Shown here: one piece after another, positions 150-39,721 of the stretch | Layout of the letters: each line of letters opens with the position of its first letter | Position numbering within the stretch: the stretch's first letter is position 1 | Assembly (NCBI GenBank): GCA_036375715.1 | Contig: DASVBS010000007.1 | Span: 1-42,755, forward strand | From: Longimicrobiaceae bacterium | GTDB lineage: Bacteria; Gemmatimonadota; Gemmatimonadetes; Longimicrobiales; Longimicrobiaceae | Direction of reading: 5' to 3' | Length of the DNA: 42,755 nucleotides | The notes under the pieces: model-generated | Told to the model about the DNA's origin: nothing | The model's input: the letters and a program-made list of their open reading frames with translations, nothing else | Databases searched by the model: none | Translations under genes and position numbers: made by a program

Positions 150-260
150 GGTTATCCGTTATCCGTTATCCGTCGGAACCGAGGGGCTGGCTCCAAGCCG
201 GCCGACCGTTCCGCACTGACAAACTGCTATCGGATAACGGATGACGGATATCGGATAACC
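150..260. repeat. Heptamer inverted-repeat element 1 (TTATCCG type)
   Basis: The left arm (152-172) is three tandem TTATCCG units. The right arm (about 228-260) is four degenerate units of the complementary heptamer. The core between them contains CGGAAC (174-179) and its complement GTTCCG (208-213), so the pairing continues past the heptamers. The element fills most of the tuf-rpsJ gap and starts 10 bases after the tuf stop. It encodes no plausible protein. Transcribed, it would fold into a long hairpin. Confidence 0.9.
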
Positions 261-3012: not shown

Positions 3013-3128
3013 GGTTATCCGTTATCCGTCGGGACTCGCGACTGGCATTTAGTCTGGCCCACTACGCGCGAAGCCAGACCAGCAACGGATAACGGATAAC
3101 GTACAACGGATAACGTACCACGGATAAC
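3013..3128. repeat. Heptamer inverted-repeat element 2 (TTATCCG type)
   Basis: The left arm begins 4 bases after the rplB stop (two TTATCCG units, 3015-3028). The right arm (3084-3128) holds several complementary CGGATAA units, with short GTACAA and GTACCA interruptions. The core contains GTCGGGACTCG next to the left arm and AGTCTGGC / GCCAGACC complementary words. It carries no coding signal. Confidence 0.9.
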
Positions 3129-3168: not shown

Positions 3169-3194
3169 GGAAGGCTGCGGCAAAACGGCGTCGC

Positions 3195-3244
3195 GTCCAC
3201 CACTGATGAATCAAGTGGACCTTGTTTCCGGCGTTGGCCGGGAA
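3195..3244 (+). promoter_or_regulatory. Two consecutive hairpins in the rpsS leader
   Basis: GTCCAC (3195-3200) pairs with GTGGAC (3215-3220). Next to it, TTTCCGGC pairs with GCCGGGAAA across 3224-3244 with one bulge. The pair lies between the candidate promoter and the rpsS start at 3265, where a ribosomal-protein leader regulator would sit. No known autoregulatory leader class was recognised. Confidence 0.35.
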
Positions 3245-3264
3245 ACAGCTAAGAGCGAGAGAGC

Positions 3265-5548: not shown

Positions 5549-5648
5549 GGGTTATCCGTTATCCGTTATCCGTAAGTCGGCGGGCCTTCGCGTGACGCGG
5601 AGGGTAGCGACAGACCAACGGGTAACGGATAACCGATAACGGATAACC
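5549..5648. repeat. Heptamer inverted-repeat element 3 (TTATCCG type)
   Basis: The left arm (5549-5573) has three exact TTATCCG units, starting 10 bases after the rpsQ stop. The right arm (5618-5648) has four complementary units, two of them degenerate. The core is about 45 bases. The element ends 15 bases before the rplN start, so it fills almost all of the rpsQ-rplN gap. Confidence 0.9.
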
Positions 5649-6363: not shown

Positions 6364-6500
6364 GGTTATCAGTTATCCGTTATCGGTTATCCGTCCGGAC
6401 CAGTGACTCAATGCTTCCGCATTGACCGCAACATTCAGCGGCGACACTCGGGCATGCCCGCCGGTCCCGACTGATAACGGATGACGGACAACTGATAACC
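6364..6500. repeat. Heptamer inverted-repeat element 4 (mixed TTATCCG/TTATCAG)
   Basis: The left arm has four units in the order TTATCAG, TTATCCG, TTATCGG, TTATCCG (6366-6393). The right arm (6471-6500) is complementary and also includes a CTGATAA unit at each end, so the variant unit occurs in both arms. The core ends with CGGTCCCGACTGA (6462-6474), identical to 13 bases in element 8 (14476-14488). It lies between rplX and rplE. Confidence 0.9.
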
Positions 6501-6563
6501 TTCAAGCGTCACCGCCCTGTCGGGCATTCGGTCGCGGCAGGATACGGAGCGCAGGAGAGAGAC

Positions 6564-7384: not shown

Positions 7385-7406
7385 CACGCGCACAGTTGTG
7401 CGCGTG
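7385..7406 (+). other. Perfect 9-bp hairpin after rpsN
   Basis: CACGCGCAC (7385-7393) and GTGCGCGTG (7398-7406) flank a 4-base loop, beginning one base after the rpsN stop codon. The last base joins directly onto the AATTACG heptamer array. There is no run of T after the stem, so it does not look like a classical intrinsic terminator. It could be a processing or RNase-stop hairpin. Confidence 0.6.
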
Positions 7407-7507
7407 AATTACGAATTACGAATGACGAATTATGGGTCCCATTGGCCGCTACTCGTCACTTCGGCAAGCAGAGATCGTAATTCGTAATTCATAATTCGTA
7501 ATTCGTA
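7407..7507. repeat. Heptamer inverted-repeat element 5 (AATTACG type)
   Basis: The left arm (7407-7434) is AATTACG, AATTACG, AATGACG, AATTATG. The right arm (7476-7507) is a run of CGTAATT-type units in the complementary orientation, with one CATAATT variant. The core has GGGTCCC (7434-7440), resembling the inner core of the TTATCCG elements. The heptamer itself is different from its neighbours in the same operon, yet both arms carry the same one. Confidence 0.9.
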
Positions 7508-11576: not shown

Positions 11577-11738
11577 GGTTATCCGTTATCCGTTATCCGT
11601 TTGTCAGTTATCAGTCATCAGTCATCAGTTGTCACTTGGGACCGACGAGCTGACCCGGAGCCATGCGGTCTGGCTACTGCGGGGCAGGGCATCGGTCTCG
11701 ATCCATGACGGATAACGGATAACTGATAGCGGATAACC
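11577..11738. repeat. Heptamer inverted-repeat element 6 (composite)
   Basis: The left side starts 8 bases after the secY stop with three TTATCCG units (11579-11599). It continues with a second array, TCAGTTA, TCAGTCA, TCAGTCA, TCAGTTG, TCA (11604-11634). The right arm (11706-11738) is complementary to the first array and has a single ACTGATA unit matching the second. The core has GGGACCG and CGGTCTCGA in complementary positions. It lies between secY and adk. Confidence 0.88.
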
Positions 11739-11769: not shown

Positions 11770-12402
11770 ATGCTACTCATCCTCCTCGGCGCGCCGGGGG
11801 CAGGTAAGGGAACGCAGGGAAGTCTCCTGGCCGAGAAGCTGGGGGTGCCGAAGATCGCCACGGGGGACATCCTGCGCGAGGCGGTGCGGGCGGGGACGCC
11901 GCTGGGCGAGGAGGCGCGGCGCTACATGGATGCCGGCGAGCTGGTGCCGGATGGCGTGATCCTCGGGCTGGTGCGTGACGCGCTGGCCGACCCGTCGGCG
12001 GAGAAAGGCGCCATCTTCGACGGCTTTCCGCGCAATGTGGCGCAGGCCGAGTCGCTCGCGGGGATCCTGCGGGAGCAGGGCCGTAGCGTCGACGCGGTGG
12101 TCGCGCTCGAGGTCGAGCCGGAGGCGATCGTAAAGCGGATGTCCGGTCGCCGCACCGACCCCGAGACGGGCGAGGTCTACCACATCGAGCACAACCCCCC
12201 GCCTCCAGAGATCGCGGACCGGGTGGTTCAGCGCCCCGACGACCGGGAGGAGACGATCCGGCACCGGCTCGAGGTATACGAGGAATCGACGCGGCCGCTG
12301 ATCGACTACTACGAGCGGGCCGGCGTGCCGGTGCACCGGGTGGACGGGGATCGACCCATCGACGTCGTCCAGGCTGACCTGCAGCGGATCGTGGCGGGTT
12401 GA
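11770..12402 (+). CDS. adk: Adenylate kinase
   Basis: A 210-residue adenylate kinase converting ATP and AMP to two ADP. The P-loop GAPGAGKGT is at residues 7-15, the DGFPRN motif at 84-89, and the LID begins near GRRTDPETGEVYH (126-138). The LID has no cysteines, so this is the long, non-zinc form. The start codon follows a pyrimidine-rich stretch with no clear ribosome-binding site. It overlaps map by 4 bases (TTGA). Confidence 0.97.
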   Translation: MLLILLGAPGAGKGTQGSLLAEKLGVPKIATGDILREAVRAGTPLGEEARRYMDAGELVPDGVILGLVRDALADPSAEKGAIFDGFPRNVAQAESLAGILREQGRSVDAVVALEVEPEAIVKRMSGRRTDPETGEVYHIEHNPPPPEIADRVVQRPDDREETIRHRLEVYEESTRPLIDYYERAGVPVHRVDGDRPIDVVQADLQRIVAG

Positions 12403-13163
12403 TCACGCTGAAGTCGCCCGAGGAGATCAAGGCGATCGCGCGGGCTGGGGCGATCATCGCCGACCTGTTCCGGGTGATTCCGGGCGAGCTCTTACCGGGG
12501 AGGAGCACCGCCGACCTGGACCGCTTCGCCGAGGAGTTCATCCGCTCTCACGCGGGCGCGGAGCCGGCGTTCAAGGGCCTGTACGGCTTTCCGGCCACCC
12601 TCTGTACGAGCATCAACCACGAGGTCGTGCACGGCATCCCCTCCTCGAGGCGCAAGCTGGTCGAGGGGGACGTGCTGAGCATCGACTGCGGCGTGAAGCT
12701 GGAGGGGTTCTACGCCGACGCCGCCGTCACGCTGCCGGTGGGGGAAGTGGCCCCCGAGGTGAGCCGGCTGTTGAAGATGACGCGCGAGAGCCTGCTCGCC
12801 GGCGTGGCCGAGGCGCGCCCCGGGAAGCGGCTGGGCGACATCGGCGCGGCGATCCAGGCAGTGGCGGAGCGCGAGGGCTACGGCATCGTACGCGACCTGG
12901 TCGGTCACGGGATCGGCCGCTCTCCGCACGAGGAGCCGCAGGTACCCAACTACGGCAAGGCCGGCCGGGGGATGCCGCTCGAGGTGGGGCTGGTGATCGC
13001 GATCGAGCCGATGTTCAACCTGGGCACCGCCGACGTGCGCACCATGCCCGACCGCTGGACGGTGATCACCGCCGATCGCCGCGTGTCCGCTCACTTCGAG
13101 CACACCGTGGCGGTGACGGAGGCGGGGCCGAGGGTGCTCACGCCGTGGGAGCTGGCTGATTGA
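12399..13163 (+). CDS. map: Methionine aminopeptidase, type I
   Basis: A 254-residue type I enzyme that removes the initiator methionine from nascent proteins. The five metal ligands are in place: D96, D107, H170, E203 and E234, along with H78 (VVHG) and H177. The start is a TTG overlapping the adk stop; the first residues ITLKSPEEIKAIARAG match the family. It is the last gene before a 273-base gap containing a repeat element and a good promoter. Confidence 0.96.
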   Translation: MITLKSPEEIKAIARAGAIIADLFRVIPGELLPGRSTADLDRFAEEFIRSHAGAEPAFKGLYGFPATLCTSINHEVVHGIPSSRRKLVEGDVLSIDCGVKLEGFYADAAVTLPVGEVAPEVSRLLKMTRESLLAGVAEARPGKRLGDIGAAIQAVAEREGYGIVRDLVGHGIGRSPHEEPQVPNYGKAGRGMPLEVGLVIAIEPMFNLGTADVRTMPDRWTVITADRRVSAHFEHTVAVTEAGPRVLTPWELAD

Positions 13164-13190: not shown

Positions 13191-13360
13191 GGGCTATCCG
13201 TTGGGATTGGGGTTATCCGTTAGGATTGGCGTTATCCGTTATCGGTTATCCGTTGGGATCGGTGGACCAGCCCACAGCCCGTCCTCCAGCAACCGCGTCC
13301 ACCGCCCAAGGAGGGGCTGGTCGGGAGCCGCGTCCTGGTCCGGACGGATAACGGATAACC
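13191..13360. repeat. Heptamer inverted-repeat element 7 (TTATCCG type, interrupted)
   Basis: The left arm (13194-13255) has CTATCCG, TTATCCG, then TTATCCG, TTATCGG, TTATCCG, interrupted by two related spacers (TTGGGATTGGGG and TAGGATTGGC). The right arm (13342-13360) has two complementary units. The left arm is longer than the right arm, so only part can pair. It fills most of the map-rpmJ gap. No infA gene is found in this gap, although infA often sits here. Confidence 0.85.
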
Positions 13361-14368: not shown

Positions 14369-14514
14369 GGTTATCCGTTATCCGTTATCCGTTGGAACCG
14401 GTGTCGAGCCCGGAGCTGTGGCCCCCAGTTATCGCGCCCAGCGCTAAAGCAGGGGGCAAGCAGCGGGCGGCGTCTCGGTCCCGACTGACAACGGATAGCT
14501 GATAACGGATATCC
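14369..14514. repeat. Heptamer inverted-repeat element 8 (TTATCCG type)
   Basis: The left arm (14371-14391) is three exact TTATCCG units. The right arm (about 14486-14514) has degenerate complementary units, including one GATAGCT. The core begins with GGAACCGG and ends with CGGTCCCGACTGA (14476-14488), the same 13 bases as element 4. After the element there are about 100 further bases before rpsD with no recognised promoter. Confidence 0.9.
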
Positions 14515-14613
14515 ATGGTGAGGAAGGGCGGTGGCGGGGCCAACTTGGTGTAAACCTCAGCGACCGGCTGGGGGAGGAAGCCTTAACAGAACGTCAGGAG
14601 ATTTCGAGGATCA

Positions 14614-15256: not shown

Positions 15257-15324
15257 GGCTATCAGCTATCCGCTATCGGCTATCAGTCCCATCGACCGAT
15301 AGCCGATAGCCGGTAGCCGATAGC
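15257..15324 (+). repeat. Heptamer inverted-repeat element 9 (CTATCGG type), compact hairpin
   Basis: The left arm is CTATCAG, CTATCCG, CTATCGG, CTATCAG (15259-15286). The right arm (15298-15324) is complementary, with only 11 bases between the arms. It would form a nearly uninterrupted stem of about 25 base pairs starting 8 bases after the rpsD stop. The sequence TTCTTTACTT follows immediately, so an intrinsic terminator or attenuator role ahead of rpoA is possible. It is the shortest-looped member of the family. Confidence 0.9.
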
Positions 15325-22621: not shown

Positions 22622-22641
22622 GACCGAGATGGAGGACGGCC

Positions 22642-22830
22642 GAATTACGAATTACAAATTACGAATTACCGATGCACTTTGAATTTTGAATTTTGAATTA
22701 CGGACAGCAGGGCCTCCTCGGCGCCCTCCGGGAAATCCTCTGCGTACTCTGTGGTTTGCCGGCGTGGACCTGCAAACGCGACACATCAGTCGCGATCGCA
22801 TTCGTAATTCGTAATTCGTAATTCATAATT
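22642..22830. repeat. Heptamer inverted-repeat element 10 (AATTACG plus AATTTTG)
   Basis: The left AATTACG-type arm (22642-22670) is followed by an AATTTTG array (about 22677-22699). The right arm (22800-22830) is four CGTAATT-type units. No complement of the AATTTTG array was found, so that part is unpaired. The core includes CTCTGCGTACTCTGTGG (22739-22755). The element ends 6 bases before the hemB start codon and fills almost the whole gap. Confidence 0.85.
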
Positions 22831-36848: not shown

Positions 36849-37832
36849 ATGCTCGAGTGCCGGGTGTGCGGGGCGCGGGGGGAGCACGAGCGGTTCGTCG
36901 CCCGGGAGATGATGTTCGGGCGGCGAGACCCGTTCGAGTATTTCGCCTGCGGCTCCTGCGGATGCCTGCAGATCGTCGAGGTGCCGGCGGGCCTGAGCGC
37001 CCACTACCCGAGTGACTACTACTCCTTCGCGCGACCGCGCGAGGGGCGCGTGAAGCGGTTCCTGAAGCGGCGCCGCGCGGTCCACCTGCTGGAGGGGAGG
37101 TCGGCGATCGGGCGGGTGGCGGCGCGCTGGTTCGGCGTGCCGGATCTGTTCGCATGGATCGCCGTCACCGGCGTCCAGCCCGACGACGAGATCCTGGACG
37201 TGGGGTCGGGGGGCGGGCACCTCCTCCTGCAGCTACGCGACATCGGCTTCCGCCGGTTGACCGGGATCGACCCGTATCTCCGGACTGAAGCCGGGCCGGC
37301 GGAGGGGGTGCGGCTGCTGCGCCGGCGGGTCGAGGAGGTGGAGGGCGAGTTCGACCTGGTGATGATGCACCACGCCTTCGAGCACGTCCCCGATCCCCGG
37401 GATGTCCTCGCGCACGTGCGTCGCCTGCTCCGTCCGGGGGCGGTGGCGCTGATCCGCATCCCCCTGGCCGACTCGTGGGCGTGGGAGCATTACCGGACCG
37501 ACTGGGTGCAACTCGACGCCCCCCGTCACCTGTACCTGCACACCCGCCGGAGCATGGAGATCCTGGCGAACCAGGTGGGCCTGCGCCTGGAGCGGGTCAT
37601 ACACGACTCCACCGCCTTCCAGTTCTGGGGGAGCGAGCAGTACCGCCGCGACATCCCCCTGCGCGACCCCCGCTCCCACGCGGTGAACCCCCGCGCCTCC
37701 CTCTTCACCCGCGAGCAGATCCGCGAGTTCGAGCGCCGCGCCGGCGACCTGAATGCGGAGGGGAGGGGGGACCAAGCCGCCTTCTACCTCAGAAAGGCAC
37801 GAGGCGTGACGGGTGGCAATTTTGAATTTTGA
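36849..37832 (+). CDS. SAM-dependent methyltransferase with N-terminal zinc ribbon
   Basis: A 327-residue class I methyltransferase. C4/C7 and C34/C37 look like a zinc ribbon. Motif I is ILDVGSGGGH (115-124), and MMHHAFEHVPDPRDVLAHVRRLLRPGA is the motif around the catalytic pocket. Such proteins methylate sugars in polysaccharide clusters. The last four residues (NFEF) and the TGA stop are encoded by the AATTTTG heptamer array of repeat element 11. The original C-terminus may have been altered by the repeat. Confidence 0.85.
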   Translation: MLECRVCGARGEHERFVAREMMFGRRDPFEYFACGSCGCLQIVEVPAGLSAHYPSDYYSFARPREGRVKRFLKRRRAVHLLEGRSAIGRVAARWFGVPDLFAWIAVTGVQPDDEILDVGSGGGHLLLQLRDIGFRRLTGIDPYLRTEAGPAEGVRLLRRRVEEVEGEFDLVMMHHAFEHVPDPRDVLAHVRRLLRPGAVALIRIPLADSWAWEHYRTDWVQLDAPRHLYLHTRRSMEILANQVGLRLERVIHDSTAFQFWGSEQYRRDIPLRDPRSHAVNPRASLFTREQIREFERRAGDLNAEGRGDQAAFYLRKARGVTGGNFEF

Positions 37833-37983
37833 ATTTTGAATTGGGGGCTCCTGCTGGAATTACGAATTACGAATTACGAATTACGGGCTCAATTTACGCC
37901 GACCGCACGACCGACATCCGCCGGGGGCGAATTCAGAATTCAAAATTGCTGCTCTGGTAATTCGTAATTCGTAATTCGTAATT
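37819..37983. repeat. Heptamer repeat element 11, interleaved AATTTTG and AATTACG arms
   Basis: Order along the strand: AATTTTG array (37819-37842), AATTACG array (37859-37884), complement of the first (about 37929-37948), complement of the second (about 37958-37983). The two inverted repeats overlap instead of nesting. The left array overlaps the end of the methyltransferase gene. The right end stops 4 bases from the stop codon of the minus-strand barrel gene. The core between the arms is about 45 bases. Confidence 0.85.
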
Positions 37984-37986
37984 TTT

Positions 37987-39591
37987 CTATAACTCCGGCA
38001 GACGGCCCGGTCGGATAGTCAGGCGTAGCGTGTTGTTGTTCAGGTCCCAGGTGCCGGGTTCGCCGAGGCTGGTGGATTCGTTCTGGAACATGAAGTTGTA
38101 GCGGCGGGTGCGGGTGTACTCGAGCTCGAGCCAGGCGGGGCCGATGCGGGTGGCGCCGCGGAGGCCGCCGAAGAAGGAGACGTCGTGGTCCAGGGGGAAG
38201 GGCTCCTGGGTGAGGTAGTAGGCGTCGTTGTCCCAGCGGATGCGGCCGCCGAAGACCCCCAGCTGCCAGTCGTCGGCCAGGTAGTCGCCGGCGATCCACT
38301 GGCTGGAGGAGCCGGGCCCGATGGCGGCGCCCAGGATCTGGCCGCGCTGGGTGTAACCCTGGGGCACGTCCAGGCTGGTGTAGAAGCTGCCCGTGGGCCG
38401 GTGCCGGGTGGTGGTGCTCTGCTCCAGGTAGGTGATCTCGCCGTGCAGGCGCAGGAAGCCCGAACTGTCCGCCCGCACGGGGTGCACCCATTGCGCCCCC
38501 ACGGTATAACCCTGGGTGTGGTTGGGATTGACGAGGAAGTCGCGGAGCGAGGTGGTCATGCGATAGCGGGCCCACTCCCCGTACGCCTCGAACCCCGCGG
38601 CCGGGAAGATCCAGCGCCCGAAGGCGGAGAAGACCTGCTCCTCCTTCGACTCCGCGGGCATGATGGCGGAGAACATCTCCTGTGGGAAGTCGTCGAACGC
38701 GCGCAGGCGGCCGAACACGGTGCGGGCGAGCCCTACCGTGAGCCCTGGTTCCCCCGCCGGCCGGTAGGTGAAGGCGAGGCCGCTCAGGTGCCGGCGGCCG
38801 TTGTGGTTGATGGTGTCGAAGTACACCGACTCCTGCAGCACTCCCGCATTCCAGAGGATCTCGAAATCACCGATCGGGGTGGAGACAGGTGGGCCGGTGC
38901 GCACGAAGATCCGCGGCACCCCGGGGGCGTTGTTGCTCATCACGATGGCGTTGCGGACCCCGGGCCCCCACCACTGGTCGTCGCGCGCCCAGCCGAACCG
39001 CACCGGTCCCACCGACGCGGTCACGGTGAGCTGGCCGGGACCGAGCGCGGCGCGTTCCTCGTCGCCGAAGCGGGTGGGCATGTCCACCGAGATCGGCAGC
39101 GTCGCCCAGTGCCATCGCGCGCTGTATTGACTGCGGTCGGCCAGCGGATAGGGGACGAAGTCGAAGGGTCGGTTCTCTTCGTAGCGCAGCTCGGGGGCAA
39201 AGACCACCACCACCGGGCCAAAGGCCGCCCGGATCCCGCCGGTGAGGTGCAGGTTCGCCCCGCGCCCGGCCCAGAGCGCCCCGTCGTTGAAGGTATAGGG
39301 GATGTCTGAGTTCCAGACGCCCTTCAGATCGGGCAGCAGGAACTGGAGCCGGAAGGTCGGCACCGAGTCGTGCGGCAGCGCAGGGAGGAGCGTGCTGGTG
39401 GAGCGCAGCAGGTAGCCGTCGGTGGAGGCGCGGCCGAGGATCTGGGCCACGCGCAGTCGATCGTCGTAGAGGCCGAAAACACCGGGGAGCGGAAGCGTGC
39501 GCTCCACCTCGCCCGGCTGCTGCGCGGCGCCGTCCGCGGGGAGCAGCGCCGCGGCGAGGAGGAGAACGCTCAGATACGGACGGGAGATCAT
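37987..39591 (-). CDS. Wzi-like capsule-assembly outer-membrane protein (paralogue A)
   Basis: A 534-residue exported protein from the ATG at 39591, with signal peptide ISRPYLSVLLLAAALLPADGAAQ. The frame extends upstream, but the ATG at residue 1 of the signal peptide is the natural start. It has NSDIPYTFNDGALWAGRG, which matches the plus-strand neighbour's [18 protein letters not shown], and WWGPGVRNAIVMSNNAPGVP against [20 protein letters not shown]. Wzi-family proteins are outer-membrane barrels that anchor surface polysaccharide. The anchor role is inferred. Confidence 0.72.
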   Translation of the reverse strand: MISRPYLSVLLLAAALLPADGAAQQPGEVERTLPLPGVFGLYDDRLRVAQILGRASTDGYLLRSTSTLLPALPHDSVPTFRLQFLLPDLKGVWNSDIPYTFNDGALWAGRGANLHLTGGIRAAFGPVVVVFAPELRYEENRPFDFVPYPLADRSQYSARWHWATLPISVDMPTRFGDEERAALGPGQLTVTASVGPVRFGWARDDQWWGPGVRNAIVMSNNAPGVPRIFVRTGPPVSTPIGDFEILWNAGVLQESVYFDTINHNGRRHLSGLAFTYRPAGEPGLTVGLARTVFGRLRAFDDFPQEMFSAIMPAESKEEQVFSAFGRWIFPAAGFEAYGEWARYRMTTSLRDFLVNPNHTQGYTVGAQWVHPVRADSSGFLRLHGEITYLEQSTTTRHRPTGSFYTSLDVPQGYTQRGQILGAAIGPGSSSQWIAGDYLADDWQLGVFGGRIRWDNDAYYLTQEPFPLDHDVSFFGGLRGATRIGPAWLELEYTRTRRYNFMFQNESTSLGEPGTWDLNNNTLRLTIRPGRLPEL

Positions 39592-39721
39592 CGGTTCGTC
39601 GGCGTCGGCGGACGTGCTGGACGGTTCGAGCCGCACACGATAACCTCAGTGACCCCGCCCGTGCTACGGTCGCGGGCGGCCACGTAGGCCTCGGACCAGC
39701 CAATTTTCGTGAGGGAGCTGC

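Follow-up and report, generated by a model that had tools for sequence, protein, structure and literature searches.

The element between the methyltransferase and Wzi-like genes

In the window (that is, the whole 42,755-nt stretch of DNA analyzed here), a gene for a class I SAM methyltransferase (Methyltransf_23) and a gene for a Wzi-like outer-membrane protein (PF14052) meet at an element built of tandem 7-nt units (37816-37983; Table 1). The two genes converge, since the latter is encoded on the - strand, and its stop codon lies only 3 nt from the element. The location at the convergent end of two genes, as described in the initial annotation, was therefore confirmed.

Table 1. Coordinates and strands of the genes, arms and repeat elements in the window
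Feature	Position	Strand	Remarks
Class I SAM methyltransferase ORF (Methyltransf_23)	36849..37832	+	final four codons and stop within the repeat
Arm A, AATTTTG x3.6, left side	37818..37842	+	array detection; gives NFEF and stop
Arm B, GAATTAC/AATTACG x4.1, left side	37857..37885	+	array detection
Variable G+C-rich centre	37886..37928	none	sequence
Arm A', reverse complement of A	37930..37949	-	inverted-repeat match, 95% over 20 nt
Arm B'	37957..37983	-	27/27 complementary to 37858-37884, then TTTCTATAAC on + strand
Wzi-like outer-membrane protein gene (PF14052)	37987..39636	-	stop 3 nt from element
Second B/A element (B A ... B')	22641..22830		between codirectional genes, upstream of ALAD gene
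B-type element	7406..7507		within ribosomal-protein operon
GTTATCC-type element	151..259		start of ribosomal-protein operon
GTTATCC-type element	3014..3128		4 nt past rplB stop
GTTATCC-type element	5551..5647		after rpsQ
GTTATCC-type element	6365..6499		before rplE
GTTATCC/GTTATCA-type element	11578..11737		between secY and adk
GTTATCC-type element	13191..13359		after gene 12399-13163
GTTATCC-type element	14370..14511		between rpsK and rpsD
Short element, GCTATCN units	15258..15324		after rpsD

The element contains two inverted repeats with interleaved arms, arranged as A, B, A', B' (extents as in Table 1, with A taken as 37816-37842). B and B' are perfectly complementary (27/27; 37858-37884 and 37957-37983), and the match between A and A' is imperfect (37816-37835 and 37930-37949). 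On the right-hand side, the arrays read GAATTCA x2.7 (37929-37947) and GTAATTC x3.9 (37957-37983). The interleaving pointed out in the initial annotation agrees with these coordinates, and interleaving was observed in all six elements that have A and B units in both arms, none of them being nested (p=0.016; seven of seven at the loosest threshold, p=0.008), in a test that was post hoc and based on small numbers. No homologous centre could be detected for 37886-37928 among the 98 sampled elements (E<1e-4).

The methyltransferase protein terminates in FYLRKARGVTGGNFEF, directly followed by the stop codon. The codons AAT TTT GAA TTT TGA (37818-37832), which encode NFEF and the stop, lie inside the AATTTTG array; these four residues and the stop are the only repeat-encoded part, and the preceding RGVTGG comes from flanking sequence. 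Approximately 84 homologues with 39-55% identity, belonging to many phyla, were each followed to the stop; most terminate 1-3 residues past the position of FYLRK and none ends in NFEF. Thus, the tail RGVTGGNFEF is an addition to the protein. The earlier proposal that the repeat supplies both the C-terminus and the stop codon of this gene is supported by the position of the codons inside the A array and by the comparison of C-termini, in which no homologue with the NFEF ending but lacking the element was found among the ~84.

A family of facing heptamer arrays in the sampled contigs

The genome, assigned to the Gemmatimonadota (G000; 4.37 Mb in 87 contigs, assembly 95% complete), was sampled through 12 whole contigs comprising 1,896,452 bases (43% of the genome), every one of which was scanned entire. 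Genes (1603) were predicted by a simple codon-usage caller, and arrays within 300 nt were grouped into one element. Exact arrays with a period of 7 (164) far outnumbered those with a period of 8 (30) or 6 (7), and almost none were found at other periods in these 1.9 Mb. Sequence read backwards gave a single array, against 278 for the real one; this control covered 4 of the 12 contigs and about half of the bases. Considering both the excess of period 7 and the nearly empty control, the arrays occur beyond chance. A tandem family with a period of 8, AAGGTGAC, is also present in the genome, with 18 arrays in the sampled contigs.

We identified 99 two-armed elements in 1.9 Mb (~52 per Mb, an estimate somewhat biased by the choice of some contigs for their query matches), and the arms face inward in 98 of them. 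The median length of an element is 166 nt and that of an arm 27-32 nt, or about four 7-nt units. Five units dominate: AATTACG, AATTTTG, GTTATCC, AGCTAGA and AGCCAGG; three consecutive copies of AATTACG occur 189 times in the genome. Most elements contain one kind of unit, and mixing takes place only within the sets AATTACG/AATTTTG, GTTATCC/GTTATCA and AGCTAGA/AGCCAGG/AGTTAGG, with one cross-set exception. The register of the array edges is preferred rather than fixed (for example, 10 of 15 left ends and 11 of 15 right ends for GTTATCC), the element ends reading (G)AATTACG, AATTTTG, GTTATCC, AGAAGCT or AGCCAGG. Centres of B-type elements often hold a REP-like palindromic module, GATCCTTCGC..GCTCAGGATGAC (for example, C65:268240-268459 and C60:60138-60389), of which a pattern search of the sampled contigs found few copies, mostly within heptamer elements.

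The elements are concentrated at gene 3' ends. The gaps that hold the 98 elements are tandem in 67, convergent in 25 and divergent in 6 cases, compared with 406, 59 and 163 of the remaining gaps that are 100 nt or longer (odds ratio for convergent versus divergent 11.5, p=9e-9). Within tandem gaps, an element lies at a median of 10 nt from the upstream stop and 35 nt from the downstream start, the stop being nearer in 54/67 (p=1.5e-6).

In 8 of the 98 elements, the stop codon of a neighbouring gene is contained in the element. AATTTTG arms supply the stop in 5/15 gene-facing cases and all other arms in 3/102 (p=8e-4), as would be expected because AATTTTG repeats have TGA in all three frames, whereas AATTACG has no sense stop; one AATTACG arm is indeed read through as ten residues. 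Exactly four of the 1603 called genes end in FEF. All four terminate in NFEF, all do so in A arms, and the genes are unrelated. Two of the other genes with this ending were checked, and their homologues in relatives have a different tail (for example, FY followed by GAREARRAG, where the element-bearing gene reads FYRNFEF). Comparison of the sequences indicates that in these two genes the element replaced native codons and was not merely placed after them, unlike the methyltransferase, whose protein was lengthened; in the one case inspected by eye (C61:43374-45908), no displaced native C-terminus, of the kind expected after a simple insertion, was seen to the right of the element. It should be noted that a single repeat gives several unrelated proteins an identical C-terminal tetrapeptide, which calls for caution in annotation and also offers a chance to ask about any common effect of the shared NFEF tail.

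Pfam analysis identified an S10-spc-alpha ribosomal-protein operon in the window, and eight elements lie inside it (seven GTTATCC-type and one AATTACG-type). This density (8 in 15.4 kb) is well above the 0.74 expected (P=1e-6), and 8/26 gaps of the operon contain an element compared with ~6% elsewhere (p=9e-5). Another element is found between atpG and atpD, gene names being read from the sequences. An integron attC cassette array at 0-16 kb was considered and rejected: Pfam revealed an ordinary S10-spc-alpha operon, and the order of the elements, GTTATCC...GGATAAC, is opposite to that of attC sites, which is RYYYAAC...GTTRRRY. No Rfam match was obtained in the window or in the operons of eight relatives.

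Predicted RNA structure, relatives and possible roles

If transcribed, the element at the methyltransferase end would fold far more strongly than shuffled sequences (z=-5.1). The B-B' hairpin is the predicted global minimum (-61.9 kcal/mol), and forcing A-A' gives -50.9, or 11 kcal/mol worse. A balanced switch between two hairpins is therefore unlikely, and the suggestion of two mutually exclusive hairpins is not supported in this form. It was also conceivable that the A-B-A'-B' layout is a regulatory RNA switch or a pseudoknot acting on the methyltransferase or on the convergent gene. The invariable interleaving of elements that combine A and B would fit such a role; however, the energies are unbalanced, the element lies 3' of both genes and most family members contain a single kind of unit, so that we regard this explanation as very improbable.

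As for the two-way terminator proposed for the element, a U-run follows B' on the + strand, whereas none follows either hairpin on the - strand, and a scan for intrinsic terminators with a short loop found none. Across the family, T-runs in the distal flanks are slightly enriched (11/117 compared with 35/898 in controls, p=0.015), and more than 90% of flanks have none. Eight members lie inside the S10-spc-alpha operon, where strong termination would be harmful, and the case for a general two-way terminator is weak.

Relatives provided further information about the same gaps. Arrays of three AATTACG units are absent from all 60 relatives examined, and in several of them the equivalent ribosomal-operon gaps are only 5-15 nt long. 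Four others (G001, G013, G009 and G007) have facing pairs of other heptamers, some degenerate, in the same operon gaps, the units being GCTATCG, ACTGGTA, AAGTGCC, GGGACTA and AACAGGG. A unit similar to the GCTATCN of the short element after rpsD occurs in G001 between rpsQ and rplN. Among 40 genomes of other lineages, AATTACG arrays were found in three, namely, a Geobacter, a Pyrinomonadaceae and a Cytophagaceae bacterium, and they form facing pairs in the first two.

These observations bear on whether the elements are made by the host and selected as signals at 3' ends, such as terminators, sites of RNase III-type processing or barriers to exonucleases, rather than being selfish or neutral sequences. 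Their position right past stop codons and rarity in divergent gaps, the enrichment in the ribosomal-protein operon, the copy between atpG and atpD, the paired arrays of other sequence in the same operon of the four relatives and the slight T-run enrichment all point in this direction. However, own arms match no better than arms taken from other elements (B, 0.891 within elements and 0.880 between, P=0.09; no better for G, S or A), which gives no indication that pairing between the two arms of an element is selected, and arm lengths are not correlated within elements. For the same reason, co-evolution of arms by quasi-palindrome correction was rejected. Moreover, the consistent interleaving is the reverse of the nested hairpin that selection for pairing would give, most flanks have no T-run, strong terminators inside S10-spc-alpha are implausible, and the 5-15 nt gaps at the same sites imply that the element is dispensable there. 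Taken together, a host signal appears rather doubtful.

We consider it probable instead that the element is a copy of a dispersed, non-coding 3'-end repeat, which would form a REP-like 3'-end structure if transcribed; the data are best read as a heptamer-class repeat that is REP-like and located at 3' ends. Members of this family have a variable G+C-rich centre flanked by a facing pair of arrays, each with about four 7-nt units, and copies would have been placed at gene 3' ends, where they may be tolerated, or useful, because promoters and coding sequence are left unbroken. One copy may then have come to cover the end of the methyltransferase gene with loss of the native stop, the ORF now ending inside the array because of its three-frame TGA. 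Transcripts of one convergent gene, or of both, probably include the element in their 3' UTR, where it would fold into a single long B-B' hairpin. By analogy with REPs, this hairpin might serve as a 3'-end structure, either as a barrier to decay or by influencing how translation is completed.

Origin and relation to known repeats

The composite left arm recurs in an element on another contig (C83), with 59/66 positions identical and the A-B spacer included in the match. Centres are mostly unrelated to one another, and 18/98 have a homologous partner. On the basis of this match and of the related centres, at least some elements look like copies of a unit. Movement is not demonstrated by the available data, since the two flanks of an element are no more alike than permuted ones (P=0.58), giving no target-site duplication, and no Y1/RAYT transposase (Y1_Tnp, PF01797) was matched in G000 (assembly 95% complete). 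Accordingly, a MITE of a DDE transposon with target-site duplication was rejected, as was RAYT/REPIN mobilization, for which the GTAG/CGTC tag is missing as well.

The lack of both duplication and transposase would be expected if the arrays arose locally, by replication slippage at a 7-nt period, with facing pairs produced by slippage and template switching in quasi-palindromes and with no mobile unit. The strong preference for period 7 also agrees with this explanation, as does the persistence of period and facing layout among relatives whose units differ; polymerase slippage as a source of heptamers is an idea cited in PMC4692102. On the other hand, the same ~five units are found at some 100 unlinked sites, other phyla also have AATTACG pairs, the array edges keep a preferred register, and a composite arm with its spacer is common to two loci. 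Slippage alone is thus an unlikely origin. A broader hypothesis, which we put forward tentatively as possible and no further, is that the elements belong to a widespread class defined by form, with facing 7-nt arrays at gene 3' ends, in which period and polarity would persist although the unit changes from lineage to lineage; such a class would have an undescribed mode of spread, of which the interleaving, never nested, would be the footprint.

Several known repeats resemble the REP-like heptamer repeat favored here. Cyanobacterial STRR heptamers are intergenic tandem arrays of 7-nt units and have been described without a facing-pair rule; by this description, they share the unit length, the tandem arrangement and the intergenic location with the elements of our genome. 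The GGGAATC repeats of Xanthomonas and GGGGA(T/C)T repeats of Nostoc form intergenic arrays of mostly four 7-nt units, with 70-75 facing heptamer pairs per genome in Xanthomonas; they are found on the coding strand no more than 50 nt past a stop codon, which some of them overlap, are rare between divergent ORFs, and have no known function (PMC4692102, 2015). Our elements likewise have about four tandem units in facing pairs, are intergenic and 3'-proximal, and are rare between divergent genes. In contrast, AATTACG and AATTTTG are A+T-rich, have no GGG and are not G-rich quadruplex-forming units; and in place of a single unit, about five units coexist in one genome, with mixed interleaved arms, turnover between genera and the recurrent NFEF ending. 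The elements most resemble these heptamer repeats and, by analogy, may work like a REP palindrome.

TAACTGA heptamers are distributed patchily across phyla, in Beggiatoaceae, Cyanobacteria and Bacteroidetes; 13 published sets overlap the upstream stop and some are found in ribosomal-protein operons, most being direct repeats that immediately precede start codons, and one pair being inverted (MacGregor 2015, PMC4679880). TAACTGA (as GTTATCA) is a minor unit in our genome, whereas almost all elements here are facing pairs downstream of stops, to which they are nearer in 54/67 tandem gaps. The GTAG and CGTC superfamilies of REPs are intergenic palindromes located mostly within 20 bp of 3' ends, between convergent or codirectional genes; they form hairpins of 20-40 bp and carry a GTAG/CGTC tag. 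GTAG REPs are linked to RAYT, and the TAG at their termini is often the stop codon of the flanking ORF (PMC3733652, 2013). A 2025 REP survey (PMC12306157) cites ribosome stalling for REPs within 15 nt of stops. Our elements are likewise close to gene 3' ends, at a distance of about 20 nt or less (the median in tandem gaps given above), but possess neither tag nor RAYT. The constant-length tandem repeats of Subirana and Messeguer (PMC8161180) were rejected as relatives, their units being 20-21 or 52 nt and not 7.

Thus, stops provided by a repeat, placement at 3' ends and heptamer arrays in facing pairs have each been described before. Their combination with interleaved arms, several units in the same genome, a change of unit from genus to genus and a recurrent NFEF ending was not found described in the literature searched, subscription journals being outside that search. 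Heptamer arrays in Xanthomonas, cyanobacteria and Beggiatoaceae have no agreed function or mechanism, and here several inward-facing units occur in one genome with other units in the same operon slots of relatives. This coexistence and turnover make it testable what fixes the period of seven and the polarity while the letters change.

The alignments of ribosomal-protein operons also revealed other conserved sequences. In one relative (G008, L169), the secY-adk and rpsK-rpsD gaps hold a different palindrome, similar to GTCATTCCCGCGAAAGCGGGAATCCAG. A leader-like sequence, GGUGUAAACCUCCG..ACCGUCGGGGGGAGGAAGCC at 14545-14585, upstream of rpsD (14614), is conserved in the 12 sequences aligned, which include relatives among L169-L182; it contains a small conserved hairpin, has no Rfam match at gathering thresholds and is possibly an S4 autoregulatory leader. 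Two further leader-like sequences are common to Gemmatimonadota relatives (L170-L180), namely, GCGUCCACCACUG...CGUGGA before rpsS (~3190-3250) and GUGACCGCC...GGGAUACGGA before rplE (~6505-6555), and at both sites the heptamer element lies between the upstream stop and the leader.
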